A stretch of 64,000 bases of DNA from Agelas oroides. Lineage: Eukaryota; Porifera; Demospongiae; Agelasida; Agelasidae. The DNA is taken from positions 7,654,636 through 7,718,635 of the forward strand of contig OX422183.1 in NCBI GenBank assembly GCA_949130485.1, given 5' to 3'. How positions within the stretch are numbered: the first letter of the stretch is position 1; the number at the start of each line of letters is the position of its first letter. Shown here one piece after another: positions 4,935 to 61,600 of this stretch. The position numbers and the translations under genes are program-made. Below the pieces are notes generated by a model. It did not search any database, was not told the origin of the DNA, and was given only the letters and a program-made list of their open reading frames with translations.

Positions 4935-5029
4935 CTAGCCTCGTTCCCAGGCCCCGTCCAGCTTTCCGTCGCTCACTTTACCGTACTAATAAGTGACGGA
5001 AAGCTGGGCGGGGCCTGGGAACAAGGCTA
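4935..5029. mobile_element. Short foldback element, TAGCCTCGTTCCCAGGC type
   Basis: The left arm starts CTAGCCTCGTTCCCAGG and continues into CCCGTCCAGCTTTCCGTC. The right arm is its near-perfect reverse complement, ending CCTGGGAACAAGGCTA. About 40 bp of arm surround a short centre. It has no coding capacity and looks like a miniature inverted-repeat element. The same termini recur across the window. Confidence 0.75.
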
Positions 5030-5205
5030 TGGCCTCGTGAGTCCAGGAGTTGAACTTTTTGCAGTCGACAAATATGTTAGAATGGTAATGGCTGCTCGCC
5101 CGCATGATCTTTAGAAAACGTCCCTGATGAGAAGTTAATACAACAGATACTGATCTTGTATGTGCTATTCTCGTTCCCTGACTATTATTCCACATGTGGA
5201 GGGAG

Positions 5206-5580
5206 AAAAGAGTCTGGTCAATGACCTATTCTGTTTTTGTTCCTTACAGTTGACAAATCAGTGATGCAACGTCTTAAAAATTGTATTATGTGATGTAATG
5301 AAAAGTTTAAAATTGGCGATGCAACATCTTTATGATGAAGTGTGATGTCACGTAATACTATGATAAAGCTATAAAGAGATAGCTTGTTGCAGGGATCGTC
5401 TTTCTCTGAGTTTCCAAACGCCAAGAAACAAAAAAAATTCCTGAAACACGAAACCTCTATCAACCTCTGAGAGACTCTGGAAAAATACCACTTGAAATTT
5501 GAAGCACAGGAATCTTGCTCTGCCAGTTGGCAAGCTCAGAAACACACCTCCTTTTCCTCCACGTGCAGCAAAATAGTCTG
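5206..5580. repeat. Partial copy of dispersed repeat shared with 41.4-41.9 kb
   Basis: This stretch aligns by eye with the interior of the foldback element at 41360-41943. Shared phrases in the same order include GATGCAACATCTTTA, AAAGAG, GGCTCGTTGCAGG-like and CAAGCTCAGAAACACAC. The outer right arm is missing here, so it is a truncated or eroded copy. No protein is encoded. Confidence 0.65.
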
Positions 5581-6028
5581 GGAACTACATATGGGCTACT
5601 AGTGTGTGGTTAGAGCTGACGTGTAGCTGTACAAAGGATAGCATTCTGTTGCTAACAGGATGTAAACTCTCCCAAGAATTCTATATCATAACTTTAGAAA
5701 AATTGGTGACCATCTGGGCCACTTCGTTTAATGACAGATATACACAAAACACCAGTTTTCAACTGCCCCACGCACAACCAGGATTTCTAGCCTAGATAAA
5801 TGCTAGTAAATAAGTACCTGGATGTATACATACTATACTGTCAACGTACACAAACTCTTACGTTCATATGAAGCAAGTACAGTCACAGCACCACCATGCC
5901 TATGGTATATCAATGCTGTTCGGCGTGTCACGTGGCTTCCGTATACTAGCAATAAGCGGAAAAAAAGCGGAAATACTTCACCCACAAAAAAAAACAAAGG
6001 CGTGGCTAGTGAGAGACGGCGAGAGAAG

Positions 6029-9000
6029 ATGAGCACAGCAATAGCTGGAGGTATTAGCCATTGTTAAAGTTACCAGCTTGTTTAGGGTGTAATCTGAAGT
6101 AGAGAGGGGGAGGGTTACCCGCGATCTAGCTAAATTTAATGTGCACAATGAAACAATAGGCAGGTCAGGTGTGATGGAGTCTCGCAAGCCACACCCTTTG
6201 TGTGGCTTGTGAGACTACTGCCGTGGTGTGTTCAGTGCAGTTCAGTCACATTTGAACCATACTGCAGGGTTGCGTCAGTTTCGTCTTGCTCTAGTGCAAC
6301 TAGCGGTTGGAGCCGACAAGGCTGCCAACTTGCAGAGAGCCAGTCAGAAAGTCAAGGAAGCTGCTGAAAATGGAGCCAAAGTTGTAGCATTACCGGTGAG
6401 CACGTTTTAATCCACTAGCACATATTTGCACTATTGTAGTTTGTAGTTTGAGCAAAACTCTTTTTGGCTACACCATAGGGCGTGCATGTGCATCATTGCA
6501 TCGTAGCAACTGTTGCTATGCTGCCATCTTGATAGGCAAAATAGACTGGGACTTGCGTACCAGTGCGTCAAACTCCCCGCGCTAGCAACGATCCTACAAG
6601 TAGCATTCCTTTCTTGTACAGGTATGTTAACTGTCATGACTAGCTCTCTGCATAATATGAAGTTGAAGATAAATGCATACTCTGTACCTTGAAGCGAGCT
6701 CGTAGAATAGGCCTCGCCATGCAATTTTCCTATTCATTGCCTCTCACGATGGCAGTGCATATACAGAAGTATGCGGAAATATGCAGAAATGATGACATCA
6801 CATGCACGCCCTCTATTCACCATAGATTATTTGAACACAATATTTGATTGGCTCTATGAGTTGTTCAATTGAGAGCAAAGTCCAGTGTGAGCAGCTATGT
6901 GCTATCTACAAACTTGAGTATCCAGCTAGCTGCTTTGCAAGTTTGTGCTTCACAGAAGCCCTAAGGCAGTACACAGATGGTGCGCTATAAAACACAATCC
7001 ACTTCTATGGGTTCTGTACGTGTGCTACTAACAAATCAAAGCAAGATTGTTCTAGTTTGTTAGGCACTAAGAAAAATAATAATTATTCTAATTGGCATCA
7101 ACAGTTGTGCAAACAATTATTTTTGGCCATTCTGTAAATTAGTGGCCTCGTTTCCTGGCCTCCCCCTTTTTTTTTGTTCTTCGGTTGGCGGTCAGTATAA
7201 CTACACATCATGTGAGTGGACGTGAAGTGGACATAGGGGGGGTGCAGCCGATATTGAAATATGTTTGAACTAAGCTTAAAAGCAAGTTTCTTACCAGTCT
7301 AGACAAGTAGTTTCAACTAACATGCTAACATCTGGAGGCCAGAACTGTGGTATATAGAATGCTTGAAAAAGATGATCCAGTGTCTTGCTTTTGTGGTTAG
7401 GCCCCTCCCCCCCTATGTCCACCTTGCATCCATCTGATGTCATTCACGTGATGAATGAGCCCAGGCCTTCCCCATTTTTCACCATTCTGTGTATTGTAAA
7501 CGCAAACAGAAGGTAAAAAGTGGGGGAGGCCTGTAGCCTCTTACCCAGGCCACATGGGAGGAGAGCAACGGCCTGGTATCAACTGTTTGCGCATGTGCGA
7601 TCATTCCCGGATATAGTGGAATGCATGTGCATGTGCAAGGGAGGCCTGGGAATGAGGCTAGTAATTTAGACCAACTGCAGCAGCTTAGGTGAAGGAGGAG
7701 GGTGATTACATCATGTCAGTCTCTCAGCCATGTCACTCTCTTCCTCCCAGGAGTGCTTCAACTCTCCCTATGGTACACAGTACTTTGCAGACTATGCTGA
7801 GCCCATACCTGGTACCTCCACTGAATGTCTCTCCAGTGTTGCCAAGGAGTGTAAAATATACCTCATTGGAGGTGAGGAATTTGTGTTCCATTCCCAGACC
7901 TCCATCCCAGATTCTGTGCCTTGTGATATGGAAATGCCAGGTCATGTGTGATGATGAATGTAAGGGCTTCGTTTTATGATCAAGGGGAGGGATCTGGGAC
8001 AAGGCTAGGGATCTGTGACAAGGGTAGGAATGCCCAGGAACGAGACTTACAGTGTATATTTTTCTTTTGTGTTTGTATTCATTTTAAATTATTGGAGGAC
8101 TATTTCATTGTTGTGTCCAGGTTCCATTCCAGAACGGGATGGGGACAAACTTTACAACACCTGCACTGTGTTTAGTCCCACTGGTACAATGCTGGGCAAA
8201 TACAGAAAGGTGAGTGTTGATGTAGTCTGTGTATTCATTGCAAATGAGTACACAGACCACTAGACTATCAGTGGCTTCTCCTTCCTAAATGGAAATATGG
8301 TTCTTTGTTGCCAAGATGGAAAAACATTTTGCCAGCATATTTTGACTGAATGCTCCAGTTGTCATCAGAGCAAAAGTGAAGAAGTGTGAACAAACTCTAC
8401 TATCCATAGCCATACACTGCTAAGGATACAGGTCATTGGAGGTCAAGGTCAGCAAGGATTGCTTCTCCCTTTCTGCCTCCTCATTACTGCAGTTATCAGT
8501 GCGTGGCTATGAATATTGGTGTTTGTCCAGGCCTTCACTCTTTCCTTCAATTACAGTAAAGAAAAGTGGGTAGAGCCTGGCAAACCAGCAGTGCTTTGTG
8601 CATTGTTCAATTGACCGCACGTTCAACACTTGTTGTGTATGATAGTCGCCCCCTGCTAGCTAGATACGTGTGGTAAGTTACCTGGTATCTTTGCTCTTCA
8701 TGTCGTTTGAGACCTACTGCACCTACCCACAATTAAACTACATCCTTTCTATCCTGACGTCACTCACGTGAGAAACCCTCTCCCACTATTCTAGCCTGGG
8801 AACGAGCTTGCCCTGGTATGACTGAAGTATTCAGCAGAAACTTTGGAAAAACAGTTTACCGATTTCAAGTTGGTAACAGAGAACTGTTAAAATGCTTGAG
8901 ATTTTTGTAGTGGTAAGATATCTAGTCATAGATTCATAGATGGACTGATAGTAAGTCAACAGAGAAGAATGGCTGTAATACATACTTGTCACAAGCATAA

Positions 9001-9623: not shown

Positions 9624-9674
<51 letters not shown>

Positions 9675-15165: not shown

Positions 15166-15174
15166 TGAGGGTAC

Positions 15175-15994: not shown

Positions 15995-16003
15995 GAATGT
16001 GGG

Positions 16004-20004: not shown

Positions 20005-20092
20005 TAGCCTCGTTCCCAGGCCTTCCCACTGTCCAGTTTTTGATCGCTTGCAGGTGATCATAAAACTGGATGGTGGGAAGGGAACGAGGCTA
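20005..20092. mobile_element. Short foldback element, TAGCCTCGTTCCCAGGC type
   Basis: Begins TAGCCTCGTTCCCAGGCCTT and ends AAGGGAACGAGGCTA, with the CCAGTTTT / AAAACTGG inner arms matching as well. The interior TTTGATCGCTTGCAG also occurs at about 38730, next to another GCCNNNCCTTCCC end. Confidence 0.75.
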
Positions 20093-20377
20093 ACTTCTTG
20101 CCACATCTGGCCACTTTTGTCAGCTCTCCAAACCTCCTGGTAGATTCTGAGTGTGGAAAGAAGGAAAGGGAGCATTTCATAGCACTATTAGAGGGCTACT
20201 GCATGGGTGTGCCTTTGTGCTAAAGTGTGTCCTCATCACAAGTGGTTTTAAAAGTAGTAAGAGCAAATGAAAGTAAAATGCAGACAGAAACGTGAACGTA
20301 ATTAACATAAGGCCCTTCTAAGAGAACATCTACAAATTATTTTTTTCCAAAGTAACATCACTGTGACGTGATCCCCT

Positions 20378-20866
20378 AGTCTCATGCCCAGACTGCTTTC
20401 GGAAAAATCAAGAAGGGGTCCGGCAACACGGCCATACGTTGCTTTGTTCACGCAGTCTGTACAGTGCGCGCCAATCAGATTGCAGAGTTCAGTTATGTCA
20501 CGTTAATTGGTGCGTGATCAAACAAAAAGTTGTTGCTGAAGCAAAGGGAGGTAGCGGAAGCTTTCGCTTCTAGGAGAGATACATTCATCAGTCTTCCGAT
20601 CAGCTAGGGTAAGCCACGGTTATGTTTCCACAGCATAGATATTGTTGCGAAGAAAGCAGCAGATATGGCTTGAACGGCGACAAACACGTTCTACGCTTAA
20701 ACTGTGGCCGATCAAACCGTTCTATTCCTACAATGGGGAGTAATTGTTTGGATAATAACACACGCAGCTCTAGTGCTTTCAGCTTCACGATCTCTTGCCA
20801 ATCTTATGGTGTTGCCAGACCCCTTCTCGACTTTTCCGAAAGGGGTCTGGGCACGAGACTAATGAC
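20378..20866. mobile_element. Foldback element, AGTCTCGTGCCCAGAC type (~490 bp)
   Basis: Left arm AGTCTCATGCCCAGACTGC, then TTTCGGAAAAATC and GGGGTCCGGCAACA. The right arm mirrors it and ends GGGGTCTGGGCACGAGACTA. The arms are about 55 bp. Its centre is unrelated to the centres of the other members. Confidence 0.75.
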
Positions 20867-21702: not shown

Positions 21703-21758
21703 TAGCCTCGTACCCAGGCCGCGTCTTTCTCCGCCCACGCGGCCTGGGTACGAGGCTA
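21703..21758. mobile_element. Short foldback element, TAGCCTCGTACCCAGGC type
   Basis: TAGCCTCGTACCCAGGCCGC and its exact reverse complement GCGGCCTGGGTACGAGGCTA around a 16-base loop. It lies about 50 bp upstream of the NIT2 copy B start codon. Confidence 0.8.
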
Positions 21759-21809: not shown

Positions 21810-24800
21810 ATGGACGCCAGTGCTGTTGGAAGCAGTAAGCTGGTATTAGCGTCCCTTGTGGGATCATTGTGTAAACCTGTGTGTACTGTACTTTGGTAGG
21901 CTATATAAATGTATGTATTCAGGGAAAGTTCTACGTAGCTCACTGACACACATCTCGACACCCTTACACACACCATACTACTGCAGGACTGTGTCAGTTT
22001 CGTCTTGCTCTAGTGCAGCTAGCAGTTGGAGCCGACAAGGCTGCTAATTTGCAGAGAGCCAGTCAGAAAATCAAGGAAGCTGCACAGAATGGAGCCAAAG
22101 TAGTTGCACTACCGGTGTGTATGGTGTCGATAATTACCTAAGGGGGCATGTGGTTCAGCTTCTTTATAAATCAATTTGACATGAACGTTAGCCCTACATT
22201 TATTGCACTGCTGGTCAGTTTACATGAAAAAGGGTAGTGTCACTGTGCTTACGTAAGGCTACAACTGAAGTCACAAGGTCAGTCCCAAATTAGCTGGTTG
22301 ATTTCACAGTGCTAGGTAGAAAATAAATTGGTAGTAAATCGAAAAACAATAAAGTGCTAGTTTGGCTAGAGAGTCCACCCCTTTGTCCGCTAGCAAGTAG
22401 CATTGTCACTCTACAGGTAGCTATTTGAGTTGTTGTAGTTGATGAAAGCGACCCACATCTTGTGTCTACGAGTCTCAGAGACGTTGCCACTCTCTTCCTC
22501 CCAGGAGTGTTTCAACTCTCCCTATGGTACACAGTACTTTGCAGACTATGCCGAGACCATACCTGGTACCACAACTGAACATCTCTCCAGTGTTGCCAAA
22601 GAGCGTAAAATATACCTCATTGGAGGTGAGGAATTTGCTTCAGAAAGAACTTGTTCCACTGTAACCGGCCTCCAGTATGTAGTTGTTTATATATTGATTG
22701 ATGAGTAGTAGTAATTTTATTGTTGCGTCCAGGTTCCATTCCAGAACGAGATGGGGACAAACTTTACAACACCTGCACTGTGTTTAGTCCCACTGGTGCA
22801 ATGCTGGGCAAATACAGAAAGGTGAGCGTTGATGTTGTCTGTGTAGTCTTGTTCTTGCCTTTTTTTGTTTTGGCTGTTATCTGAACTATGAATATGTGTA
22901 TTTGTTCTTCTGCATGCTGTTCAACCTTTACCAGTATCATGGCGTAATGTAGTACGCCATATGTAGGGATGACCCCGAAAAAAAATGGCGGCCACAATAA
23001 AAGTGCACAAATGACACACTCGAAATGTCTATGTTTGATTAGTCAAAGGCCTCTATGAGCCATATCAGGCATTATCGAGTGCTTCCATGAGCAACGGGAC
23101 CGTTAACTTTGCTGGAGGGCATCGCTGAAGTACCAGATCGGTGAGTCGCTAAAACGGGCAAATCGTCTATCTTCTGACTTTCTTCTTTCTTTCTTTCTTT
23201 CTTCTTTCTTCTTCTGTCAGTGTAACTGTCAGCCAGGCAAGCACGATAATGGCTGAAGCTATTACAACAATTCAAACGTGAAAAAATAGCATAAATCACC
23301 GAGTATTGCACTCACTACTTATCGTTGTCGTAGAGCTCCAACTATTCTTCAGTGATTCTCAAGCACTCCTGTGTTAATGCTTAGTGCTTATATGCCATTT
23401 TGTTACAATAAAATTATTCATAGCAAGTGGAGCACGTGTTTAGATCTATAACTTACCTAGCCTCGTACCCCGCCCGTTCTTGGTACGAGGCTATAACTTA
23501 CCGTGAAAGATGAAGACAGCAACAGCCGAAGTCAGGTGGTATAACACAAAACATCAAGGGGATGTGCATGTTTCCAGGAGAAGGTATGTATTGCTAGAGA
23601 TACTGTAAATGAAAGTGTATGTGAGGACTCCCACACGGACGTGTAGCTAGTTGGCAAGTGCAGCAGTTTCTACTTCCGTTTAGACCATAGCTGAAGTCAT
23701 TTTGCATGTAATCTAGTTAGTTGCTGGTCATATAACCCACCTAGATACGAAGTATACTTGATAGTTAAAACACTAGCTGGTATTTGCCAGCTAGTGTTCT
23801 AAATTTGCCAGCTAGTGTTAAGTTGCCAGCTATTGTTTTAACCATCAAGTACTTCATATGACTTAGAACACTAGCCACTGATATTCAATTTTTTATTGTC
23901 AACTTTCACATTTCAAATTTGCTTGTTATAGTCATTTACATGCACATACAATGTTTACTGCGAGTTGATGGTAGCACTTTGGCTGGTGTCTTAACATCCT
24001 CCTTTTGTGTTGTGCCTGAGTCTTCATATTCCTCCAACGAAGCAAGTGGCAGCCTATTGGTAGCTTGGTATACTCAAACTCTAGTAGCACCGAGTCAACA
24101 GTGCATGGCTTCATTTCAAAACTTCTGCACTAGAGGTGGCCAAAGAACTGGCGGTTGTTCAGCTCCACAGACCCCTATGCGTTGGTTTCAAACTGATTTA
24201 GACTATAGCTACTCACCATCAAACAGTTCTGTAATGGGGTCTTACGACTCAATACTCTGGTGACAGTCTATGGAGAGTTTTTCGGTGAACCCATTAGTAG
24301 TCCACGTGAAATGAGCACGGATTTATAAGCTTGCATGCAAAGCCTTATTAAACTCATGTGCTTTGCACTTGGTTTTTTATGAGGCCTTGCTTGGACTTCT
24401 AAACCCCCCGGATGAAGAAGTTTGATGTTTGGATTGACAATTTCACTTCAAAGCATTTGAATTTATGACAATTCTTAGCTCTTTCTACTATCATACTGTA
24501 CACACCATGCATCTTCCCCTCGGCCTACCCTCCCATGTCACTTCTCTCTTACATTCCTAAAAAGCAATACAAAAAAAAACAGCAGGAACAAGTCACAAAA
24601 AAGTTTTCTGAATGAAAACAAGTGCATGTAGGGATGGAACCCTCAAAAACCAACCAAACTAGATGGGAATGACACCACAACAATTTCACACCATCCCTAC
24701 ATCTTGTGCCATTTTGCCAACTATGCACACTAAAAAATTCTCTAGCCTATTCACACCCACTAAATGAATACTAGCTGTACTCAGCGCTGCTCATTCCACA

Positions 24801-33594: not shown

Positions 33595-33930
33595 TAGTCT
33601 CGTGCCTAGCCGGATATAACCTACGGAAAATCCGTCTGGTAACGTTGGGCTCGATTCTGGGGCTTTTCTACTTACAACGGAGTTATTTGAACGTGCCAAT
33701 CAAATTGTAAGCATGTCCAATTACTCGGTCAGCCCACTGGCGCCCTATCACTGTGTGGATGCTAATTGGTGATAATTGAAGCCATGTAGAGGTGAGAACT
33801 TCCATATATGGTCAGCGCCAGCCGTGTTCAAAGTTCAAACCCTGCTGATGTGTGCAAAAACCCAAGGCACGCAATGTTACCAGATCAGATGGATTTTCTG
33901 TAGGTTATATCCGGCTGGTCATGAGACTAG
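33595..33930. mobile_element. Foldback element, AGTCTCGTGCC type
   Basis: Left arm AGTCTCGTGCCTAGCCGGAT then ATAACCTACGGAAAATCCG; right arm TTTTCTGTAGGTTATATCCG then GCTGGTCATGAGACTA. The arms are about 50 bp. Confidence 0.7.
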
Positions 33931-34046
33931 GGCAGCACGTGGCCTTCCCTAGTCCAGATGTTGATTGAACGGCCACGTGCTGCCCTAGTCTCGATCTATA
34001 TCTCGTGCCCAGACCTACGCGCCCCCGTCTGGGCACCAGACTAGTG
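33927..34046. mobile_element. Two adjoining small palindromes
   Basis: CTAGGGCAGCACGTGGCC pairs with GGCCACGTGCTGCCCTAG (33927-33989). Immediately after it, CTCGTGCCCAGACC and GTCTGGGCACCAGACTA form a second palindrome to 34046. Both carry ends of the AGTCTCG group. Confidence 0.6.
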
Positions 34047-43598: not shown

Positions 43599-46500
43599 AC
43601 ACACACACACACACAGTTGGCTACTCTCTTGTTGCCATCAATGGAGCCCAAGTGACAAGCAAGTGTCTACCAGATGGCCGCAGTGCAATGGAGGTCATCC
43701 GATCGCCAGACAACTTCCCCCTCTCCCTCAAGTTCGCCAGACTTCGAGTCTCTATCAACGAACGCATCATGCTCCTTAGCATGTTCCACTCGTGAGTGAC
43801 AGCTGTTGAGATAACCCTCCCCCCCCCCCCCCCCCCCCTTGCATCCTGCAGATAATTGAAATCCCGTCCTTGTTGCTTAGCTGCATACATTAGGTCTTTG
43901 TTTGGAAAACTTGTCAAGTTAAATTATTTAGGACTCTGTTTTGCACACTAATGCTACATAAGATAGTGATTCTGCAAGATTGAACAGCTCATCATCAGCA
44001 AGGAAAGTCATGCCTCTTTGAATAGTCTTCACACATGGGTGTAACCTTTGCATACATTGAATGCACAAGAAGAAAGTGGTAACGCTCAACAGAGCTTGTT
44101 GAAAGCTTCTGGTAATTAAACATGAAGTTTAGCAAGACGACAGTTAGCGCTTTTATGAACAAAAAAAGTTTTTAACATCTAACATCTCTACCAAATGGAC
44201 TGGGGGGTGTTCCCCTCAGGATATTACAGTGATGTTTTACTTAACTATAACTTTAACTAAATACCTTCATATGGCCTTTAAAAATTTTACTTAATGAAAC
44301 GATAACTAACTAAAATTCATTGGCCAAACTGGAAACTGTAACTAAACTAAAACATCCAGTAAGAAACCGAAACTATACTAAAGTAAATAATACTACCCTA
44401 TTCCACTGATAACTATCATTTTAGTAAGGGTTTTTGAGAGGTTTAATAATTAATAAACCAAATTGTTTTCCAAATGTACAAACTAACGGAATGTAATGGA
44501 GCCAGACTTATTTACATGTTATTTACATCTGTGTTGAGTTTCCTTTGTGTCTAGCCTTTGTGCCTTATTTCTGATGACGTAGCCATGACGATAGTCTATT
44601 GTTCTCGTGTGATATATATATACCGACGTGCTTGTAAGTGAGAGTTGAGTTGAGACACAGGAGTATTTTGCCACCTTGGTTCTGATCGTGCGCCGCCGCT
44701 TACGTTACATACAGCTAAATTGAAAGCATAAACTGTATTAAAACAACGCTGGGACTTGCTAATAATACACTTTGTTTTCACTTGTACAAATGTAGGTTCC
44801 GAGGACAGGCACACAACAGAATGAAGGCGTGTGCATGTACTTGATTTGTTGGTTTTTAAGTTTTATACACTAGCAGTATTTTGTAGATAGAAACAGGTTA
44901 CTCTTCCCTATGTATTGAGATGTGTGTGGGCACTGGGTGCAAGTAAACCTTGCAACACCCACCATTGACATTAACAGCATCCTCTAATTTACTCTTTCCA
45001 GGATTTATGCCATATCGGTGAAGTTGTCGCCAGAGAAACAGTCGTCAGGGATAAAGTGCCTGGAGGCGGATACCTTCAAACTCTATTGCTTTCAGACATT
45101 AACAGGTATGAAATTAAAATTCTCGACATGTAGCCTTCATTCACAGGCCCCACCCAGCTTTTCGTCACTTGCAGTACTGAACAACTGGGAGGGACCCTGG
45201 AAACGAGGCTACTCAACATGAGTATCTAAATTTAGGGCTTTGCCTTGGCGATGGTGGCTTTCTTATGTAATTCTTATCTCCACAAGACTTAAAAAACATT
45301 AAAAATGTAAAAAGATGTAGGGATGGCATGCCAAAAAGTATGCAAACAAGGTAGAGATAATGCATGAAAGCAAAGGTCAACATATTGGCAAAGCCCCATC
45401 CCTACATCTTTTTCACACTACAGTTAGACAGTGCATGGGGGTCTTCCTAAAACGTACCACAAGTTCACAACTTTTACTGGAAATTGAAGTAAATCCCTGC
45501 CCGACCCTATACCCTACCCTTTGTTTCTGAAACACACTTCCTGTTGGGAGAACTATACGTTCTCAGGCAACTTCCTTCTCCCACGTGGCCTGGGAATGAG
45601 GCTAGTACGACCCTCTTGGTAGCATTATGTTGTATGGAACCTCTTCAACAAATTAAGCAGTGAGTTGGAGTAGACTGCAGACATATGATAGTAAGTGTCG
45701 TTAAAGTACATGTCATGGTTTTAGCCTCGTCCCCAGGCCACTTTTGAAATTCCTTCTCCCACATGCCAGCTCAGGAACGAGGCTAATATGATCTAGCAGC
45801 ATTGCATCAGCTGTAGTGTGAAAAAGATGTAGGGATGGGGCTTTGCCAATATGTTGTTGACCTTTGCTTTCATGCATTATCCCTACCTTGTTTGCATACT
45901 TTTTGGCATGCCATCCCTACATCTTTTTACATTTTTAATGCTTTTTAAGTCTTGTTTCTGTATGTTTTTGATGTTAATCTCAGTTACAGTTAGACCTAAG
46001 CCTAAGAAGAATATTTCAAGTGTAACCACAACACCAGAACTTGAAGCGGTGTTGACAGTTTAGTAGTGGTTCCAGGCATGTGTAATATAGCCAGCCAGTA
46101 GAACCTAATGAAGGGCCAACCACTCTCCGTACCAAACTTTGTGAAACCAATTTCATAATTCAGTTGTGAATCACATGACGACTGACCAGCTGCAGCACAG
46201 AAAACTATCAGTAGTATCATATTGACAACTGACCATCGGCCTAGTTTTACAATTCACTAAAGCTGTGGGTATAGGCTATTTTTAGTGTAGCTACAAGTAG
46301 GCAGCAGAATGCAGCGCCTTACCTACGTGGTATTCATAAGCCTTGCCCAATGCCGCGGGGGAAAAAGACCATGTCAGCCATGCGTACTGCCCACTGGCGA
46401 CTGCCCGCTGGCGATTTCGCTTGTGTACTGCCCACGACTGCCCGCTGGCAATTTCGCTTGTGTACTAGTCTCGTTCCCAGAGCAATGACCGTGGTCTGGG

Positions 46501-49091
46501 AACGAGACTGCGCATGCGCGTACAAGATTTGAAAATGGCATCCTACGCAACAGACAGCAGTCAGCCAGTGCTGTGAACAGCTTTTTTGACCAGGGTAAAT
46601 TTGAAGCTATGAAGATGCTGAGTGGTTGTGAAGCTGCGCGCTGTGATGAGCATCAATTTCGTGCTAAAATCAAGGTGAGTACTTGAGCTGTTTTCGAGTT
46701 ATCGTTGTTTGACACAGTGGTCTGAACAAAGAAGAAGAATAACAAAAATGGCACTTTGGCTATCGCACACTTTTGCGTTTAGCTGTCTTCTGCGTGGCTT
46801 TTGGCCACTTATATGAGTCTTGCTGATCATAAAGGCACTCAAAGAGGACATCTAAATAAGCTTTTAGCGTGTTTGTGGTGAAGTTATACGGCTTTTGCTT
46901 AAGTATTGCATATATTGCACGTCGGCGCCATCCCTACATAGAGAGTCTACCGACTCTCTGATAGTCTATAAACCACACCTTCGGTAAGTTTGGTACCGTA
47001 GTCTCTGGTTAATAAGCACATGCGCTTATAAGTGTAAGTGGTAAGCAAATATGCGCCTAATAGAGGATGTGCGCTAAATAAGAGATGCAATGAAAGCCAT
47101 GCCCTACAGGTGGGCATGACTGCGCAGGAGATTGTTACACGCACGTCCACCTAGTAAGTATCGACGTAAAATTACAAGGCTCCATCCTCCTCGAAGAGAC
47201 CATGATTTGCAGCCATTGTGCATTCAAGGAGATATGCGGGGCTCTACTCGTACGGGAGAATTTCTAGTACGGTTCAGTTGTAAGCCGCGAAGGATATGGC
47301 TTGTGACTTTGTGTTAGCCAGAAGCGGAAAAAACCTGTGTAGCTCTTCTTTGTTTGACTTCAGGATGACTATCAAGTGTGCTGCATGTTCTTGATGCCAT
47401 GGTTTTCACTCGATCTCTCACCGCCAGCGTGAGCTCTATTTAATGCACATGTGCTTAATAAATGATGCCGTGTACCAGGAAGGAAGCATGCTCCTAATAA
47501 ATAATATGCGCCTAACAGCAAGGTGCGCCTAATAACCAGAGTTTATGGTAGTTAGCTAAACTCGAAATTCAAGGGAAGAGCTAGCTAAGCCACATGGCCT
47601 GGATATGAGGCCAGGGAGAAGTCAGACACGAGTTTACTCATGAATAGCAAGACATGCTCTCACATTACTTCACATTTGCACTGCATAGGATCTCAAGAAT
47701 TTGTGTCATCTAGTACTATGCTAGCCTCGTTCCCAGGCCTCCCCCGTTTTTACGGGGAAGGCCTGGGAGCATTCATCACGCGAGTGGACACGAGGTGGAC
47801 GTAGGGGGGGAGGGGCCGATATTTAAATATGTACGTACTAAACTTGAAGGTGAGTTTATCACCGGTAAAGAGGAGTAGTTTCGTTCACGCTAAGCTCTGG
47901 AATCCAAAATTGCGGTAGACCGCTTGAATGGATGATCCAGTGCGTTGTTTTGGCGGTTGGGCCCTTCCCCCCCTACGTCCACCCTGCGTCACCTGACATC
48001 ATTCACGTGATGAATGCTGCCAGGCCTTCCCCGTTTTTCACCAGTCTTCTGCTCCCGTGTATTATTGTGAACGCAAATGGAAGGTTAAAAACGGGGGAGG
48101 CCTGGGAACGAGGCTAGTACTATGCAGTTCAGGCTAGTAATTACTCCTTGGGGGAGAAAGAGGGGAGGGGGGGGGGGGGGGTTACGCATTTTTGACATCG
48201 GTGTGCAATACCAACCCCCAGGGAGGGATATAACTAACTAGATTAATGTGGCAAGTCCCATGCAGGGTGCCTGGTTAGGGCAAAACTGGAGATTACTAAA
48301 ATCCATCACTTTTGGTGCAGAATTCTTTGTATAGCTCTTTCTAGCTTCATGTAATCTCATATATGTTGCTTGCCCTAATGTAGCAAGCACTAGGTGAGGT
48401 GCCTAGTTAGGGCAAAACTGGACATTACTACGAAAATCCATCACTTTTGATGCAGGATTCTTTTTATAGCTCTTTATAAGCTTCATGTAAGCTCATTTTA
48501 TATGTTGCTTGCCCTAATGTGGCAAGCACCTTGCAGGGTGCCTGGTTAGGGCAAAACTGGAGATTACTACTAAAATCCATCACTTTTGGTGCAGGATTCT
48601 TTAGATTAAATAACTTGTCACCTAGGCAATATCACTTAGAGAGAGATAATGGGTAACATTCCTAACATTGCCTAGGTAACAGGTTGTAGTTCTGCTGTAT
48701 AATAGAATGTAACAATCAGTATTTATATTGCAGGTGTCAAGTTTATTGTGTTGGCAGACAACAGACAATCAAAGGTTGAAGACTTGTTGAAAAAAATTTA
48801 TGAACTCTATGCGGACTTTGTGCTAAAAAACCCCTTCTACTCACTAGATATGCCAATAAGGTGAGTTTAAGAGAGTATAATTGGGAATATGGACATGCAT
48901 ATGTGGGAGTCCGGGGGCTGGGAACGAGGCTAGGATAACTGTAATTTCCCAATCTACATGATAACCGCACACCTCATGCCACTTTTAACTGTAGGTGCGA
49001 TTTATTCTCTTCAAATCTGGTGAAGCTATTAGATTCAGCAGAGAGGGAGAGAGGAGGAGGGGCCTACACCACAGGAAGTACCACTGCATAG
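38427..49091 (+). CDS. TRAPPC4: TRAPP complex subunit 4 (sybindin family), 5 exons
   Basis: Core subunit of the TRAPP tethering complex, which activates Rab1/Rab11-type GTPases in ER-Golgi and Golgi traffic. Exons: 38427-38601, 43617-43791, 45002-45105, 48734-48860, 48995-49091; all GT/AG, frame kept, 225 residues (human 219). It reads [20 protein letters not shown] at the N terminus, then [89 protein letters not shown] and a short variable tail. The whole sybindin/longin fold is covered. The chosen ATG matches the family start; upstream in-frame ATG 38370 would add 19 residues not seen in relatives. Intron 1 is 5 kb and stuffed with a Ginger-like element, two foldback elements and a CA repeat that reaches the acceptor; introns 2 and 3 also hold repeats. 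No lesion seen in the coding part. Confidence 0.95.
38830..41293. mobile_element. Ginger-like DNA transposon with recognisable ends
   Basis: Ends begin TGTCATGAAAAATTTG on the left and, on the reverse strand of the right end, TGTCACGAAATGTTTGTACC. The terminal repeats run for about 80 bp and include TATTTCGAAATATTTGGACC. Both ends are bordered by GGCC (38826-38829 and 41294-41297), a plausible 4-bp target duplication. TGT termini, a 4-bp duplication and a Gypsy-like integrase fit the Ginger superfamily as I recall it; there are no LTRs. Length 2464 bp, in intron 1 of TRAPPC4, coding on the opposite strand. Confidence 0.85.
39105..41048 (-). pseudogene. Ginger-like transposase: integrase + Ulp1-like + PHD finger, degenerate
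   Basis: Exons on the minus strand: 40719-41048, 40363-40608 and about 39105-40230. Exon 1 gives the HHCC zinc domain of an integrase ([20 protein letters not shown]; the CPEC is in exon 2). Exon 2 carries the first catalytic Asp ([15 protein letters not shown]). Exon 3 has the second Asp ([12 protein letters not shown]) and YHPQANG. There, near 40090, a small deletion shifts the frame and removes the residues that would include the catalytic Glu. [16 protein letters not shown] resumes in another frame. After [18 protein letters not shown] the GPY/F part is missing. Next comes a Ulp1/C48-like part (HWLVVTN with the His, VRVYDSL with the Asp). Its Cys motif [19 protein letters not shown] is only readable in a shifted frame at about 39440-39380. 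A PHD finger ends the protein ([34 protein letters not shown]). Confidence 0.85.
41360..41943. mobile_element. Foldback element, AGTCTCGTGCCCAGAC type (584 bp)
   Basis: Left arm TAGTCTCGTGCCCAGACTAT then the GCACGCGGAGGGGAAAAATA block; right arm is the mirror image, ending AAAATAGTCTGGGCACGAGA. The arms are about 75 bp, reaching GGCAGTTGACC-type inner sequence. The interior matches the partial repeat at 5206-5580, so this is a real dispersed family. Confidence 0.85.
41987..42397. mobile_element. Foldback element, related arms, different interior
   Basis: Starts TAGTCTCGTTCCCAGACCCC and ends AGTAGTCTGGGCAAGACTA. The inner arm GGTCAACTGCCTATTCCATT pairs loosely with AACGCTATAGGCAGTTTACC. It lies 43 bp from the previous element in the same TRAPPC4 intron. 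Confidence 0.65.
42398..43300. other. Unassigned part of TRAPPC4 intron 1
   Basis: No coding features seen. Contains AGAGTCTGGCTGGCGAGACC (about 42627), a half of the AGTCTCG terminal type, and a GGTGGGGGGAGGTGGG stretch at about 42548. Confidence 0.4.
43311..43616. repeat. (CA)n microsatellite forming the 3' end of TRAPPC4 intron 1
   Basis: About 300 bp of CA with CACC and TACA interruptions. It runs without a break into CACACAG, the splice acceptor of exon 2 (exon starts 43617). There is no conventional pyrimidine tract. The long open frames on both strands here are repeat artefacts. Confidence 0.95.
45316..45406. mobile_element. 91-bp TGTAGGGATGG element (subfamily 2)
   Basis: Bounded by TGTAGGGATGG and CCATCCCTACA; the interior carries CATGCCAAAAAGTATGCAAA and CAAAGGTCAACATATTGGCA. 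It is the inverted partner of 45828-45921, and flanking AAAAATGTAAAAAGA and TTTTTCACACTACAG are also mirrored. Confidence 0.75.
45720..45786. mobile_element. Short foldback element, TAGCCTCGTCCCCAGGC type
   Basis: TTAGCCTCGTCCCCAGGCC and CTCAGGAACGAGGCTAA with short imperfect arms, in intron 3 of TRAPPC4. Confidence 0.6.
45828..45921. mobile_element. 94-bp TGTAGGGATGG element (subfamily 2), inverted copy
   Basis: Inverted copy of 45316-45406, about 420 bp away in the same intron. Confidence 0.75.
46466..46511. repeat. Small palindrome, AGTCTCGTTCCCAGA type
   Basis: CTAGTCTCGTTCCCAGA and TCTGGGAACGAGACT around a short centre. Confidence 0.65.
46955..47560. mobile_element. Possible inverted-repeat element with GCGCCTAATA motifs
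   Basis: AGTCTCTGGTTAATAAGCAC near the left end is complementary to GCGCCTAATAACCAGAGTTT near the right. Between them GCGCCTAATA/GTGCTTAATAA motifs recur several times in both orientations. A 61-codon plus frame (47132-47317) has no recognised family. The superfamily is unknown. Confidence 0.5.
47717..48120. mobile_element. Foldback element, copy 2 of the 7.1-7.5 kb repeat
   Basis: Begins CTAGCCTCGTTCCCAGGCCT, with CCCCCGTTTTTACGGGGAAG, and ends GGGGGAGGCCTGGGAACGAG then GCTAG. The interior matches 7141-7545 (GATGATCCAGTG, TCATTCACGTGATGAATG). Confidence 0.8.
48250..48605. repeat. ~140-bp tandem repeat, 2.6 copies
   Basis: Units contain GGTGCCTGGTTAGGGCAAAA, AATCCATCACTTTTGGTGCA, ATAGCTCTTT and GTTGCTTGCCCTAATGT. 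In intron 3 of TRAPPC4. Confidence 0.85.
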
Positions 49092-49639: not shown

Positions 49640-50363
49640 ACCAACTATGAAAGACACAAAAAAAAAACCCACCTAATTGTCTACTCTAAGCAACAAAGGA
49701 AACGACTACTCAAAGTATATACTCAAAAGATTAAAGTAACAAGCAAAACAAGCCCAAAGGCAAACACAGGAATAAGAATACATGAAACAAACATGAAAAG
49801 AACCAAACAATGAACAAAAAGGAACAATACAACAAACCCACAACTATGCTACAGTGCATCTGCATGTTGGTTGGGCATTTAAGCTACGGTACATCCCTCT
49901 TGGGGGGGGGGGGGGGGGGGTAGTCTGACACATGGGTATCTCGCTATACATACTAAATTATGTCCAACTCGGTCCAGGTATATTTCTGCCAACCAAAATT
50001 CAAACAGTTACGGAATATGAATTATGGAATATGGGGCGTGCAGAGTCCTGAAACTCCAACACATGTATACAGTGTTGATGCATGATGCATGACGTACTCC
50101 ATGTGTGCAATTATAGTGCCATAGCAGTTGATTCCATGAAGAGTTGATCTTGTAAGAGTTGACCATGTGGGAGTTGATCTTATGAAAATTGATCTCGTGT
50201 GCACACACCCACATCAGCACGTCCACGAAAAGTTTTGGAAGAACCCATGCAAAAGTCACCTGCTGATAACCCTACCACTGAGGTTTCTTGCTAACAAATC
50301 CCCGGCCCCTATATGCTCACAAGTAACACACACATAACACATTGTTACCAAAATGGCACAAGA

Positions 50364-51116: not shown

Positions 51117-51404
51117 TAGTCTTGTGCCCAGACCCTCCCGAAAAGCGGAAAGAGGGTCTGGTGTTCTGAACGACTTTTCTTGTCACATGGGGCGAGGTCG
51201 AACGGCGTAAAGAATGTAATTATTGCATTCCCCATGCACTGTATGCATACTAGATCTCGTGCTCAATTGCCTACGTCATCGCACATAATTACACGTTCTG
51301 CAATCTGATTCAAGCTCTCAGATCAGGGAGCTGTGACAAGAAAAGTCGCTCAGAACACCAGACCCTCTCTCTCGCACGTGTGGGGAGGGTCTGGGCACGA
51401 GACC
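51117..51404. mobile_element. Foldback element, AGTCTTGTGCCCAGACCC type (288 bp)
   Basis: Left arm AGTCTTGTGCCCAGACCCTC, then AGAGGGTCTGGTGTTCTGAA and CGACTTTTCTTGTCAC; right arm the mirror, ending GGGAGGGTCTGGGCACGAGA. The arms are about 70 bp. Confidence 0.8.
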
Positions 51405-53311
51405 AGTTTTGCTGTATAGCATGTACCAGCAAAAACAAAGTTTTATATAGCAAAGTATAGCTACATGTTTGTATGCATGTAGTGCATTCAACTCACTATC
51501 ATAGTCTAAGACACCCCCCTATAATTGATCCTCTAAAGTGGCTATTTGTCAATGGCTTACTGTAAATGCACATTGACTCATAACTTCCTAAAGTAATAGA
51601 TAATGTAAGGTAGCCAGGGATTTATGGTCAATAACCACCTGACTCTGAGGGTGGAGCCCGAGACAAGGTGGTTATTGTAAACCATAAATCGTGTAGCTAC
51701 ATACTTTATGCGTTATGATCTCCAACCTGATTGGTCCTTGTTGTTATTAGTAAACATGAAGGTAGTTTATAGGGAACATATTTAAAACTTCTATATTTCA
51801 CAACTTCCTGTGGTTTACGAAACAGAATCCACAGGTTATTGTGAATTTATGGAAAATAATACCCAATTTGTTACAATAGAAACTAAGGCAGCTAAAGTAG
51901 AGATTAATGGTTCAGAAGTCTCAGAACAGAGTTGTGATATCTTTACTTTCTGGTCAGGGAATGATCCTCCGCGATCAATCGCTATCACCTCAGTACCACC
52001 GTTAGCTCCCCCTAGCTGCATGTCTGTGATGTCCTTGCATGGGCTACTTCCCCCCTCTTACGTGATTCGCTGGTTATAATATAAATTAACACAGATCAAG
52101 CCTCGTTCTCAGGCTCTCCCAGAAAGCTGGGCGGGGCCTGGGAACGACAGATCCACACTGAAGCACTTCTGATACAGCAGGACTTATATACACAGACTCA
52201 CTGATAAAATACTACACCTAGGGTGGAAACTGTTCACACATTAGTGCCTACTGCGCTTAGTGCGCTAACACAATCTAGCACATTTGCACGATTAACACAT
52301 CTAAGCTTTACTAGCTACAAGAGTCACTCTCAGGTGTGTTAAGGACTGGGTCAGAAAAGGGCCCTCATTAACTCCACTTCAATGGGTTATTTGATCTCCA
52401 TATTATTTAAATCTCCCGGTTCTAATATGGTCCCACCCACTTTGGGGATCACGTGATCTATTGTCTTGGGGAATTTGGTCGCTTGACGAAAGGCGGTTAT
52501 TGTACAGACTAGCAATGGCTTTCGTACTTGCACGCAAAAGAGCTCGTGGTGACCTAATCTGCCATAGCTGTGGAAGTGATTTCATACTACCGCCTCTGAG
52601 AGTAATTCTAATTAATGCATACCACGAAAAACAGCATTTTTCACTCATAGCTCGGAAGCGGTGGTAATAAATGACTTCCACAGCTAATACATGTTACCTA
52701 GGCTTACCTAGTTTTGGAAAAACGTGGTACAGTTGGAAACAATTGCGGTTTAAATAACCGCCTTTTGCGTTTTATACTTCCCGACGTGGATCGGTAAGGA
52801 AGCCAGATTCCAGCAATAAGCAGGTGGGCGTGGTCAATATTTTACCAAGAAGAGGTGTGGTGATGCACCAAAACAGTTTCCACTCTTGCAGCAACTTTGG
52901 ACACTCACTCCAAATACTCGCACAAATTTAGCTCTGCTAACTCTGGTCCCAGCTCACTAGCTGGCAACTTTTATGCAGGTAGCTATGCAGTTGCTAAGTT
53001 TTGCTAAGTTTCTATAATTGGGCTATTGTAAAACAAACACTTGATACATCTCTAATAATGAAGCAATAGCATACCTATGTTGTTCATAAGGTTGCTAGCT
53101 AAAGTTAGTTCACTGTGCTCTGAACATTGTAGTTGATTCAGGAAGAGCCAACAAGCCTGAAAAGAACAGTTTTTGCAAGGTGACTGCACACCATTGGTGA
53201 TAGTATAGAGGAAGAGCAATATTACCACTGCCAATTTTGTGTTGACCACGAGTTTGAGTATATAGTTGGAGCTGCACAATTGTATCTGTGGTGTCAGTGT
53301 CTGCTGTATCT

Positions 53312-55448: not shown

Positions 55449-55527
55449 TAGCCTCATTCCCAGGCCTCCCACCTTCTACTTGCGTTCCATGAATGCTAAA
55501 TAGGGGGAGGCCTGGGAATGAGGCTAA
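55449..55527. mobile_element. Short foldback element, TAGCCTCATTCCCAGGC type
   Basis: CTAGCCTCATTCCCAGGCCT and AGGCCTGGGAATGAGGCTAA around a centre of about 40 bases. Confidence 0.8.
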
Positions 55528-57410: not shown

Positions 57411-57845
57411 GTGGGCCACCCTCTTCCCTCCTCCACACTAAATAGTCAGGCTGTAGATTTAATTTTCTAACAATTTATGCCTAGTGCATGAAAAGGGGAT
57501 TGTCATTTTGACCATGCAGCCATAATGCTATCTGAGTTCAGGTGAGTGAACACATTACATACATGGACAGTTAATCCCTCCTCTGTTGCAGTTCCAAGAT
57601 ATATTCGATGTCCGTATTCCTAGTAAGTGCACTTGTACCATGATTAATAAAACAGAATGTTAATTATGTAATACCAGGAATGCTTGGAATCACAGCTGCT
57701 TTCAATTAACTTTACAGTCTTTGTTTTGAGCCAAATTGTAGTTAGGTTATAAAAAACTTGTTTCTCACTTTTTCAACCCAAAGCCTTTACATACTAAAAA
57801 TGTTTTTTTTTTTTTTGTTTTTGTTTTTTTCTAGGTCCTCCCTAG

Positions 57846-58214
57846 CTCACAATAGGGGCTTTCCAAAACCCACCCACTTTTGGGGAGTACCTCTGATTGT
57901 CCTGAATTTTAGATATGACTTAGTACTCATTAGGAAGAGACTAAGTTGAAAATTTGAGCTGGATAGCATGTTTAGTTTCTGAGATCTGCACACTCAAAAT
58001 TTCAGTCTTCCCATAGCTAGGACCCAATCTGGCCCCAATCTCCATCTAAATATACAGGAAAGTTTCAAACTTGAAGCCTGCAAATGAAACATGGTATAAA
58101 GCTGAAATTTGCAAGTCAGTCTGCAGTCATAGAGTACTAACTATGGTAGGTAGATCAAGATGCTGGGAGAAAATTTAATGGAGGGGGCGTGGTTTTGGAA
58201 AGCCCCTATAGGTG
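57846..58214. mobile_element. Inverted-repeat element (~365 bp)
   Basis: ATAGGGGCTTTCCAAAACC at the left and GGTTTTGGAAAGCCCCTATA at the right form short terminal inverted repeats. TA borders are possible. The interior is non-coding. Confidence 0.65.
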
Positions 58215-58655
58215 GGTATTATCCGTACCCTCAGGGGAAGTTGTTCATACATACGTTCCAGAAAGTGATGATTCCTACAAACTACCTTATGTATACTAAT
58301 AACAACCAATGTGAACCAATCAGGTTGGAGAATTAATAATGTATGATAGCTACAAGATTTATCGTTTAATAACAACTGCCCTTGTCCTCAGGCTCTTTCC
58401 TTGGAGTTGGTTGGTTATGGCTACTATACATTATCTATTACAAATCCTAGTTTATAGTATGATTGTATTAAAGCCCATTATAATAAAAAGGTGTTTACTC
58501 TATCAAAACAAGACTGTTTTCAAAAGGGATGCAGAATATACACTGTATATGGACATCCACTAGTGACTGCTATAAATGAAACAAGAAGGTAGCATTGCAG
58601 AAATTCATAGAAATGATCTAAATTTTGTATGACCCGCTACTGACAAAAAAAAAAA

Positions 58656-61600
58656 CTACACTAATGTGGGAGGGTGTGGAGAGTGGAGGGGGTGTGGAGG
58701 GGGTGAGGGGGTGGAGGGAGTGGGGGTAGAGGGAGTAGGGGTACCCAAGGAAAGAGAATCAAATATTGTTGGCTCAGATTTATAGTCGAAGGTGATCCCA
58801 GTTATCCTGGTGAGAAAGGTATTCATCTTGCTGAGAGGCGCACTCCAAATGGGCATAAGAGGTTCAACTGTTGAGGCTAACTCGGCAGCAAGTTCAAGAC
58901 CAGGCAAGAGGTCTGGAAAAGAGAGGAAGATAGGTATCTTTCAGCTAAAGGGATAAATCAGCCCAATACCCTACCTGAACCCTGAAGTAGGCCTCGACAG
59001 ATTATGCCAGCATAATTTTAAAGCATAACAGAATTATTATGCTGGAATATGGGGGTGTGGCCATGCGAGACTAGGTAACCTACTGTACATGTATATGCCA
59101 GGTTGTCTTTCAGGCTTTCAGCTCATGTTACAACCCAAGCTCTGACTGCCAGTGGATTTGTTCCCCGAGACCATGCTCTGACCAATCAGATTGCAGAAAA
59201 TACTAAGATATGTACCTTTCTCCTCAAGGCCATGGTGGGTGGTCTTGCTAAAAGGTTCTTCTTCATTCGTGGTAAAGACTACACAACCCTGCTGGGGGTT
59301 GGCGGATCCAAAATTTGCTATTTCTGAGTCCTCTCCAGCTGGTTTTCCTCTGTCTTCCCCTGTCTTCTTCGATGGAGTGTGATCTAGCAAACTATCAGAT
59401 TGAGACTGCAAGCCATGCTGTTCACTCTTAAAGATGGAGCTTAGTGATTTCTGTGGCATCTTCTTCAGCAGCTGTACTTCGCTGTTGCTTCTCTGTGACA
59501 TCGTAGGTTCAGACATCTTTCGTGACACAGCGGGAGTGGACTTTGACCCTACAGTGGAGGCATTAGTTTGTCTTACTGTGCCCTCAACAAGAGTAGCCGG
59601 CAAATGTTTCACCCACATGGGAGATTTCGATGCTTGGTCTGGACTGATTTTTGTTCCGGCACCATCAGTGCTACTAAATCCTAACAATAAATCCTTTGGT
59701 TGTCTACAGCCTTTCTGGAGTAGTTCAAGCCGACCTTTGACCCCTGGGCTAAAGTGTATTTCCACGCGGTATCTTTGCTCAGAATCTAGTGATTGAGAGA
59801 AGTCTTCGTAGAGCATGATGCCAATCTGGGTCATGTAGCTCATTTCTGGGCTGCAGCTTACTCGCTTCATAACGTCCCTCCATTCAGGATTGTCAGGGTT
59901 CTAGAGAGGAGGAGGGAAAGGAGAAGGAGGAGGGGAGGAAAGAGGAGGAGGAGAAAGAAGAGGAGAATGAGAGAGGAGGAGGAGGAGGAGGAGGAAGGGG
60001 AGGGGGAGGAGGGGGAGGAGGAGGGAGAGGAGGAGGAGGAGAAAAAGGAGAAAGAGAGGGAGAAAGAAAAGGAAAATAAGAAAAAGGAGGAGAAAGAATG
60101 ACACATTTCTGGGTGGTGTCTTACCAAGATACAATATCTAGAGGTACTAGCCTCATTCCCAGACCAATGGTGGACTGGGACGAGTGGCCTGGGAATGAGG
60201 CTTGAATGGTACATGCACGTACATCCACCAAATTGCCATATCTCAGGATGTTCAACATGGAGTGCACATGGGACTCACTGGTGAAATAAAGTCTGGTTTG
60301 GACATGCCGATTTGGTGTGACGACTCCCTTAGAGAGATGAGGATTCAGGTGGTATATGATGTCCGCCTCTCCGTTGACTATGGTGTGTTGTAGGTCGGAT
60401 TGAATCTTGCGTAAGAGTGGGGAGCAGATCTTAGTGGCAATGTCCAGCTTCTCTTTTTCAGTGATACCATACTCCTGAGGAAGAGATGAGAGGAAAGAAG
60501 TGGGAAAGAGAGAGGGAGAGGAGGGAGAGGAGGGAGAGGTGGGGAAAAGAGGGAAGGGAAGAGGAGAAGAGAGGTGGGTAGAAAGAAGAGGGAATGGAAA
60601 AAGGAGGGAGGGGGAGAAAGACAAAAGGAGAGAGAAGGGGGAGGAAGGAGACAGAGGAAAAAGAAAAGAGAAGAGCAGGGGAAGGAAGAAGAAGAAAAAG
60701 AGAGTTGGGAAGAATGTGAAAGAAGGAAAGAGAGGAGGTGAGCAGGGGGGAACAGAGAAGAAGGGAGGAGAGGAGGATAAAGTGAGATATAGTGCTAAAG
60801 GAAGGTTAGGGAAGAGGGAAGGAGAACAGCAGGAGAAGGGGGGACATGTACAGTGTACAATGTACATGTGTAATGTACATGTAGTGTAATCCCGATTCCA
60901 AGATTCCCCCACAAAATGTGGAAGGGGACTATGGGAATGAGGCTGGTTGTGGTGATTGGTCACACTAACCTGAGGAATGACTAGGTCAGCCAAGTTCATG
61001 GCGCAGCGGAAGAGATCGTTGACATTCTTCAGACCAAGGTGACTATGTTTGTGTGTGCGTGTGTGTGCACAGTGTATAAAATGTGTCGTGCATGTGTGTA
61101 CGTGTGTGTATGTGTGAGGGTTTGAGGGACTCCCAGGAACAGCGTACATTCCCCACCTGTTGTGCTGAAGGTCGTACTTGATGCAGTCGTAGATATCTGG
61201 GATCTTGTTAATGTCAAACTGCCCATTTGCCATCTTCAGATCCTTCATACAGCCACAATGACAGAGAGAGATGGAGAAGGGAAAGAGAGGAGAGGGGGAG
61301 AGGAGAGGAGAAGGGCAGAGGAGAGAAGGGCAGAGGAGAGAAGGAAGAGAGAGGAGAAGGGGAGAGGAGAGGAGTGGAGGGAGGAGAAATGGGAGCACAA
61401 AGCAATTCCCTCATAAAGCAGTAACTAAATTTGACTCAAGCAGCTACCAAATTGATGACATACATGTACATACATGTACCTTGTCCAGTTTTGCCCATCG
61501 TTTGATCATTATCTGCAGTGGTTCATTACGATACAGTGTGACTGTGAAGGGGGGAAGAGAAGGATGAAGAGGAGGAAGAGGAGAGGAGAGGAGGAGGGAG

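Follow-up and report, generated by a model that had tools for sequence, protein, structure and literature searches.

Miniature inverted-repeat transposable elements (MITEs) are short, non-coding elements with inverted ends, a target duplication and high copy number, and the members of a family normally share an interior. Tm1, a Mutator/Foldback family of root-knot nematodes, is described in the consulted sections of PMC3169594 as having composite ends, mostly 9-bp target duplications, and ends made of ~14-bp tandem repeats with asymmetric 7-bp tips. Its many non-autonomous members differ in interior and have a single transposase source, a Phantom-like Mutator-like element (MULE), according to the same sections. 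The part of PMC6446971 seen gives 8–11 bp target duplications for the MULE superfamily. Repetitive extragenic palindromic (REP) elements and their associated transposases, the REP-associated tyrosine transposases (RAYTs), are presented in the consulted part of PMC3733652 as short palindromes with a fixed tag, in many families and often in oppositely oriented pairs. The elements described here lie in a 64-kb stretch of contig OX422183.1 of the demosponge Agelas oroides, referred to below as the window. They are interpreted, with a probability of roughly 0.8, as non-autonomous cut-and-paste DNA transposons that have the common end TAGYCTCGTNCCCAGRC and 9-bp (sometimes 8- or 10-bp) target duplications and are moved in trans by one enzyme.

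The original prediction proposed more than 20 foldback elements in the window with one terminal core and mostly unrelated interiors. Foldback elements with a common core are indeed present: the window contains 17 exact copies of the core CTCGTNCCCAG, where shuffled sequence would give 0.05. The 259-Mb genome has 39,171, some of them in tandem arrays that captured the end (L009, L010), whereas the same pattern reversed has 165. When 53 exact cores taken from 244 kb are aligned, a full 17-nt end, TAGYCTCGTNCCCAGRC, emerges, which is preceded by TA in 45 of the 53. Its Y and R positions covary, being paired in 46 of 53 ends (28 C-G, here called C-type, and 18 T-A, here called T-type), with seven discordant combinations that include C-A once and T-G once. 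The figure of more than 20 holds for ends, 45 of which in the window are within three mismatches of TAGYCTCGTNCCCAGRC. It is too high for complete facing pairs, which number 15 with both ends at that threshold and two more-degenerate ones (41988, 5166). All 13 individually quoted examples are real, their quoted edges being off by 0–5 bases.

About 0.14% of the genome was read (~0.36 Mb, MULE loci included). The window together with 180 kb of C1 and C2 contains 139 ends with at most three mismatches, against six for the reversed consensus. This sample is uneven, since the C1 block has no end better than two mismatches and the C2 block has 26 exact ones. The C1 block contributes 19 of the 139, each with 2–3 mismatches, and those printed are minisatellite-like units. 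Runs of TAGCCTCATTCCCAGCC lie in this block (L011–L020) near 29–37 kb and 68 kb. The end sequence has also turned into a minisatellite unit at L009:6137-7309 and L010:7967-8306, where a 15-bp unit resembling TAGCCTCACTCCCAG is present in ~78 copies and a 35-bp unit with TAGTCTCGTTCCCAG in 10.

Target duplications, whose presence the original prediction had put forward as a check, flank many of the elements. Facing pairs were sought in the window, in 180 kb from C1 and C2 and in an additional two stretches of 10 kb; this sample yielded 49, of which 47 have distinct flanks. Immediately outside TAG...CTA, exact direct repeats of 9 bp are found in 13 of the 47, of 8 bp in four and of 6 bp in one, and another six have an 8–10 bp direct repeat with one mismatch. 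When the right flanks were permuted 1,000 times, there were never more than three exact matches of 7 bp or longer. The four exact 8-bp cases represent two local duplications (C2a 62025/64444 and 75749/75812), so the number of independent cases is somewhat smaller. Exact duplications of at least 8 bp occur in 7 of 24 elements of up to 66 bp, 2 of 9 elements of 67–130 bp, and 8 of 14 longer ones. Exact 9-bp duplications surround elements as short as 36, 38, 44, 51, 53 and 55 bp, the smallest being the 36-bp element at window position 23458. Seven core loci outside this count were read separately (L001, L002, L004–L008): exact 9-bp repeats are present at L005 (53 bp), L007 (410 bp) and L008 (313 bp), L006 resembles a duplicate of the L005 site and matches at 8/9, the overlapping L002 and L004 have no duplication, and L001 has no facing pair.

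A paralogous empty site in C2 accords with insertion. Two tandem copies carry CATGACCCTATTATGCTTG uninterrupted, and in a third the 341-bp element at C2a 68886-69226 splits the site and stands between two copies of CCTATTATG; the homology extends 145 bp on the left and just 13–16 bp on the right. Because of these insertion-site duplications, the elements are mobile DNA and not chance palindromes: they are cut-and-paste transposons. Within the window, exact 9-bp repeats are found at 23458, 41359, 47722 and 51117, and by eye also at 41988-42393. The window elements are as follows.

4936..5029, strand., 94-bp single-hairpin element with C-type ends; flanks TGGCCTCGC / TGGCCTCGT match 8/9.
7534..7660, strand., 127-bp element with C-type ends; no recognisable duplication.
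20005..20092, strand., 88-bp element; flanks ACTTCTTAC / ACTTCTTGC match 8/9.
20377..20861, strand., 485-bp T-type element with a stem-loop at both ends, containing CCAATCAGATTG; no recognisable duplication.
21703..21758, strand., 56-bp micro-element with dispersed copies elsewhere; its own flanks match 7/9 (by eye).
23458..23493, strand., 36-bp micro-element; exact 9-bp target duplication TAACTTACC.
33595..33929, strand., 335-bp element with a relative at L035:277-612 (86%); no recognisable duplication.
33998..34043, strand., 46-bp micro-element with one end worn; no recognisable duplication.
41359..41942, strand., 584-bp element with a stem-loop at both ends and a worn relative at ~5166-5590; exact 9-bp target duplication GTGGGGATA.
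41988..42393, strand., ~406-bp element, right end 2 bases short; CTAATTTCC on each flank, 9/9 by eye.
45722..45785, strand., 64-bp element with one end worn; no recognisable duplication.
46466..46510, strand., 45-bp T-type micro-element; no recognisable duplication.
47722..48116, strand., 395-bp element with a stem-loop at both ends and a worn relative (~76%) at 7206-7533; exact 9-bp target duplication GTACTATGC.
51117..51405, strand., 289-bp element with stem-loops at both ends and unlike loops; exact 9-bp target duplication GTTTTGCTG.
55449..55526, strand., 78-bp single-hairpin element; no recognisable duplication.
60148..60203, strand., 56-bp element with mixed T/C stem pairs; no recognisable duplication.

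The 56-bp micro-element at 21703-21758 is dispersed in the genome. In a 175-base query that holds it at positions 60–115, copies in C5, at a second C1 site and in C15 match exactly 60–115; the C16 cluster and C118 match 60–116, C18 and one C23 site 59–115, the other C23 site 57–115, and C7 60–120. The dispersed copies are 89–96% identical. Because their matches stop at or near the edges of the element, it probably moves as a unit, judging from these alignments. The remaining rows of the search are matches to the left flank (query 1–45 to 1–78) and a few palindrome matches on the opposite strand. The left flank itself (window 21644-21699) is part of another dispersed repeat, and its matches mostly stop near query 45–56. 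With up to three mismatches allowed, the inner 36 bases of the element turn up at just 12 places, the C16 cluster accounting for seven, and thus reveal no large parent family. Five contigs carry copies of another element, T-type and 62 nt long, with 0–3 mismatches.

The elements are of two kinds: longer ones of ~270–600 bp, some of whose families have conserved interiors, and micro-elements made of one stem-loop between two tails. Both 15-nt ends are intact at a spacing of 36–66 bp at 1,277 places in the genome, and the reversed pattern has none. Sixty-three short elements were compared, 27 of them printed from the genome-wide scan and the rest taken from fetched sequence. They fall into 48 interior clusters at a threshold chosen by the analyst, 43 of which are singletons, although the interiors of two of these (C2a 62947 and 68144, clearly derived from a single locus) were too short for comparison. 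By eye, the singletons at C1:1217621 and C1:5257589 seem to be related. Local duplication probably explains the four clusters that contain at least three short elements, each of them confined to 190 kb. Palindromic identity within short-element interiors averages 0.53, against 0.24 after shuffling (59 elements), and three of the elements are perfect palindromes. One 53-bp element recurs at G000:C1:72451, 135259 and 166659, and the spacings of 62.8 and 31.4 kb suggest a large local duplication with a period of ~31.4 kb.

Thus the claim that most interiors do not match stands for the short elements and fails for some long ones. The long elements C2a 17634 and 25024 are ~97% alike, and the window element at 33595 has the 86% relative listed above. 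A stretch of the C2a 17634/25024 family has 239 first-look candidates, and the 40 that were scored are all 97–100% identical. The outcome held to count against the original prediction, a few ordinary MITE families with random similarity of ends, therefore describes some long elements as far as ordinary families go, but the similarity of the ends is far from random. The proposal that many families share one transposase that reads the core gains support from exact 9-bp duplications at elements of 36–584 bp with unlike interiors and from the sharp-edged dispersal of the 56-bp element.

Many ends of long elements have a second feature directly inside the tail, of the form CCAGRC - variable - GYCTGG. 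This inner motif is present at 31 of 59 long-type ends of this genome, and at 9 of 12 in contigs from a poecilosclerid sponge discussed below. Base pairing was assessed in 31 ends left after removal of near-duplicates; kinship persists among some of these, for example where both ends come from the same element, and the shuffle ignores it. Inside the fixed base, 27 of the 31 ends have a Watson–Crick pair over the next 1 bp, 24 over the next 2 bp and 17 over the next 3 bp. With partners shuffled, the corresponding counts average 12.3, 6.4 and 4.1 and reach at most 21, 14 and 11. The stem sequences differ (CT, TA, CC, TC, GG and others) yet remain paired, so pairing is kept while sequence changes. 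The element at C2a 68886-69226 has unlike stems at its two ends. Several C-type modules continue into TTCATCACGTGA, and some T-type elements carry CCAATCAGATTG or a near variant further in. The printed ends, which are part of the set, show a single stem-loop module and no long inverted repeats of tandem units.

Taken together, a transposase acting in trans, probably MULE-like, may recognize the 17-nt end, pair two oppositely oriented ends, excise the DNA between them and insert it with a 9-bp stagger. What lies between the two ends would then be free to vary, and one enzyme could carry many unrelated families. Inside the tail, many ends fold, with the base CCAGRC/GYCTGG fixed and the remaining stem variable but complementary. 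A long element consists of two end modules around an interior, and a micro-element of one stem-loop flanked by two tails, which can be mobile as a whole. A length of 36–66 bp is near or below the size at which DNA bending can bring two ends together. Extrusion of the stem-loop may bring together the ends of a 36–60 bp element, which would otherwise be sterically hard, and new arms may arise by fold-back copying or hairpin-mediated deletion. A more far-reaching version holds that the end, made of a fixed tail and a stem-loop free in sequence, is structure as much as sequence, that a single module with two tails is by itself a whole mobile element, that 36–60 bp palindromes jump by way of an extruded hairpin or cruciform in which the enzyme meets both ends, and that fold-back-copied stems give new families with practically unlimited interiors under one enzyme; as a whole, this version is considered unlikely.

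Insertion with a 9-bp stagger points to a DDE transposase. Among such enzymes, MULEs are the best candidates because of their 8–11 bp duplications (PMC6446971) and the numerous MULE matches in this genome (at least 119 domain matches), and a MULE-like transposase is our best guess for the moving enzyme. The elements are classed as MITE/foldback-like rather than as MULEs, and the enzyme is one that we infer. The locus L041 was considered as an autonomous element, with an end at 78 and a MULE open reading frame (ORF) at 1316-3232. It was rejected: its other ends, at 495 and 751, both come before the ORF, and its MULE aligns with that of L039, which has no such end. A MULE at L035:2348-7158 has 41-bp identical inverted ends of its own, a 474-amino-acid ORF and a 10-bp duplication, CTCTGGCAAT, read by eye; nine MULE matches share its domain score of 44.7 bits.

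The same end was also found in assemblies labelled as prokaryotic. A scan of prokaryote assemblies with the 17-nt end gave at least 120 matches. At least eight of these (L046, L048, L061, L075, L080, L106, L120 and L130) belong to a metagenome-assembled genome (MAG) labelled as a Cycloclasticus symbiont of Poecilosclerida sp. M. These contigs of the MAG (LWTN) resemble host animal DNA, and L080 encodes a RING/B-box/Filamin/NHL protein; the window encodes a comparable RING/B-box/NHL protein. In the 2.3-Mb Cycloclasticus bin the core occurs 23 times against once for its reverse, 17 of the 23 as CTCGTCCCCAG. Element ends in the poecilosclerid contigs carry the same stem-loop module, L046 has an exact 9-bp duplication, and L048 matches at 8/9. 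Judging from these contigs, at least one demosponge seems to share the end system.

A facing arm within 43 nt was found in 21 of the 120 matches listed, namely L080 and 20 bacterial cases, of which 18 are cyanobacteria by title. The bacterial palindrome reads TAGCCTCGTTCCCAGGC..GCCTGGGAACG. Its left half is nearly identical to the sponge end, the resemblance is long, and it is repeated within Microseira. It is found as follows.

Microseira: L062, L066, L073, L074, L088, L137, L142, L157, L163.
Oscillatoria: L065, L084, L136.
Remaining cyanobacteria and two other bacteria: L063, L105, L121, L122, L146, L147, L102, L158.

Because the full facing end is absent from all 20 bacterial cases among the matches listed, this palindrome is likely a REP look-alike, going by its sequence. 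Viral contigs gave one isolated match to one C-type end and none to one T-type end.

A number of observations weigh against the interpretation of these elements as transposons moved by one enzyme. No transposase gene was found between such ends in the ~0.36 Mb read, and the autonomous element with the same ends that the original prediction had suggested looking for did not appear in this small fraction of the genome. Of the 14 MULE loci inspected (L029–L042, of at least 119 matches), none is bounded by the core. These include ten loci, L029–L032, read as ~3.3-kb stretches, and L035–L037, L039, L040 and L042, read as 5.5–7.5 kb. L033 and L034 share the position of a single end, downstream of the MULE domain, and neither has a facing one; the ends of L038 point away from the MULE; and an end in L041 lies 2.4 kb from the MULE domain, with no facing end beyond the ORF. 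Inspection by eye of the long-element interiors in six frames brought up nothing recognisable, and when ends in the sample were paired over distances of up to 30 kb, with near-exact duplications required, no element longer than 600 bp emerged outside local duplications. Furthermore, 23 of the 47 facing pairs have no recognised target duplication, and of the 24 elements of up to 66 bp, 15 lack one even when a mismatch is allowed. Ends that neighbour each other at less than 1 kb (up to two mismatches, arrays included) are facing in 35 cases, diverging in 20 and tandem in 30. Facing is thus the commonest orientation but not the sole one, and many ends are single or worn; a strict facing pattern in a 335-kb sample gave two facing against one diverging, too few to use. 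The inner motif is missing from 28 of the 59 long-type ends, and an energy test on the stem interior alone is significant in 8 of 23 ends. Lastly, facing combinations in the poecilosclerid other than L046 score 3–8 of 9 (L080 4, L106 6, L130 5 and 7, L164 3 and 7, L165 3), although L165 has ACTAAATAAT on both sides, an exact 10 bp seen by eye and missed by the 9-base comparison.

Some of these points fit other explanations. The main rival to a role for the stem-loops is a mutation bias that keeps palindromes: they may be by-products of inverted-repeat symmetry or of quasi-palindrome correction, with no part in transposition, and the linear 17-nt end alone may be read. Short elements would be palindromic simply through their inverted end copies, and both the weak energy test and the ends without the inner motif are consistent with this explanation. 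However, many long-element ends pair with themselves and not just with the other end, their variable part shows covariation (24 of 31, where shuffling never gives more than 14), and the two end stems of C2a 68886-69226 differ. A by-product origin is regarded as quite possible, although somewhat short of even odds. Another explanation, foreshadowed in the original prediction as a process that creates palindromes around the core, makes fold-back priming or template switching at a broken transposon end the main source of short elements, most micro-elements having formed in place or by internal deletion. The mostly unique and palindromic short interiors (of 63, 43 are singletons, including the two that could not be compared; 0.53 against 0.24; three perfect palindromes) and the 15 of 24 short elements without a near-exact duplication are in its favor. 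The 62-nt element has the hairpin that serves as end module in the 584-bp element, so it could have arisen when the DNA separating two hairpins was deleted. Exact 9-bp direct duplications around elements of 36–55 bp and the sharp-edged 56-bp copies, whose hairpin is found at so few places and with no large parent family, argue for movement of the finished short element instead. Deletion after insertion would retain the duplication, which keeps this explanation in play for the unique short elements. As the main source it is rather unlikely; as a possible source of new arms it agrees with stems that are element-specific and kept complementary.

A REP/RAYT-like system, in which tailed palindromes are moved single-stranded by a Y1 (HUH) transposase, would account for the layout of tail and hairpin, and some bacteria have the similar palindrome given above. 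Single-strand Y1 transposition is not expected to give 9-bp target duplications, and their presence here makes such a system highly improbable.

Other features of the window include an ORF at 10211-11431 with DUF3504 and Phage_integrase (tyrosine recombinase) domains, which we take to be possibly Crypton-like. Large inverted repeats lie at 49267-49644, 24590-25416 and 45282-45955, with arms of 179, 137 and 101 bp that are 92–99% complementary; no core end with up to two mismatches is listed at their tips.

With their intact duplications, elements of 36–66 bp open two questions to direct testing: how small a DNA transposon can be, and what a hairpin contributes to end pairing. They show how a single enzyme could support very many short families, and they form a strong repeat class that should be masked in similar animal genomes. 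A literature search by the core string, by CCTGGGAACG, and by sponge MITE, foldback, Mutator and smallest-MITE topics returned no title or abstract start that describes them.

Compared with known systems, the elements are like MITEs in being short and non-coding, in having inverted ends that face each other and a target duplication, and in their high copy number. A common interior, as in MITEs, holds for some long families and not for most short elements, which have just their ends in common. The self-folding ends of foldback elements are seen here, as 24 of 31 motif-bearing long ends pair over the next 2 bp and the short elements are palindromic. The elements resemble MULEs, so far as the part of PMC6446971 seen describes them, in a target duplication length within 8–11 bp, and MULEs are numerous in this genome. 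They differ in that no MULE gene with these ends is present at the examined loci and that the long elements have no universal long inverted repeat beyond the stem-loop module. With REP elements and RAYTs, as presented in the consulted part of PMC3733652, they share short palindromes with a fixed tag, many families and pairs in opposite orientation, whereas the presence of target duplications, the range of sizes and the animal host indicate that a different mechanism is at work. The closest described analogue seen is the Tm1 Mutator/Foldback family of root-knot nematodes. In the sections of PMC3169594 consulted, Tm1 is alike in its composite ends, 9-bp duplications and many non-autonomous members of unlike interior; the present elements differ from it in having a symmetric 17-nt end followed by a stem-loop of free sequence, and in reaching sizes down to 36 bp.

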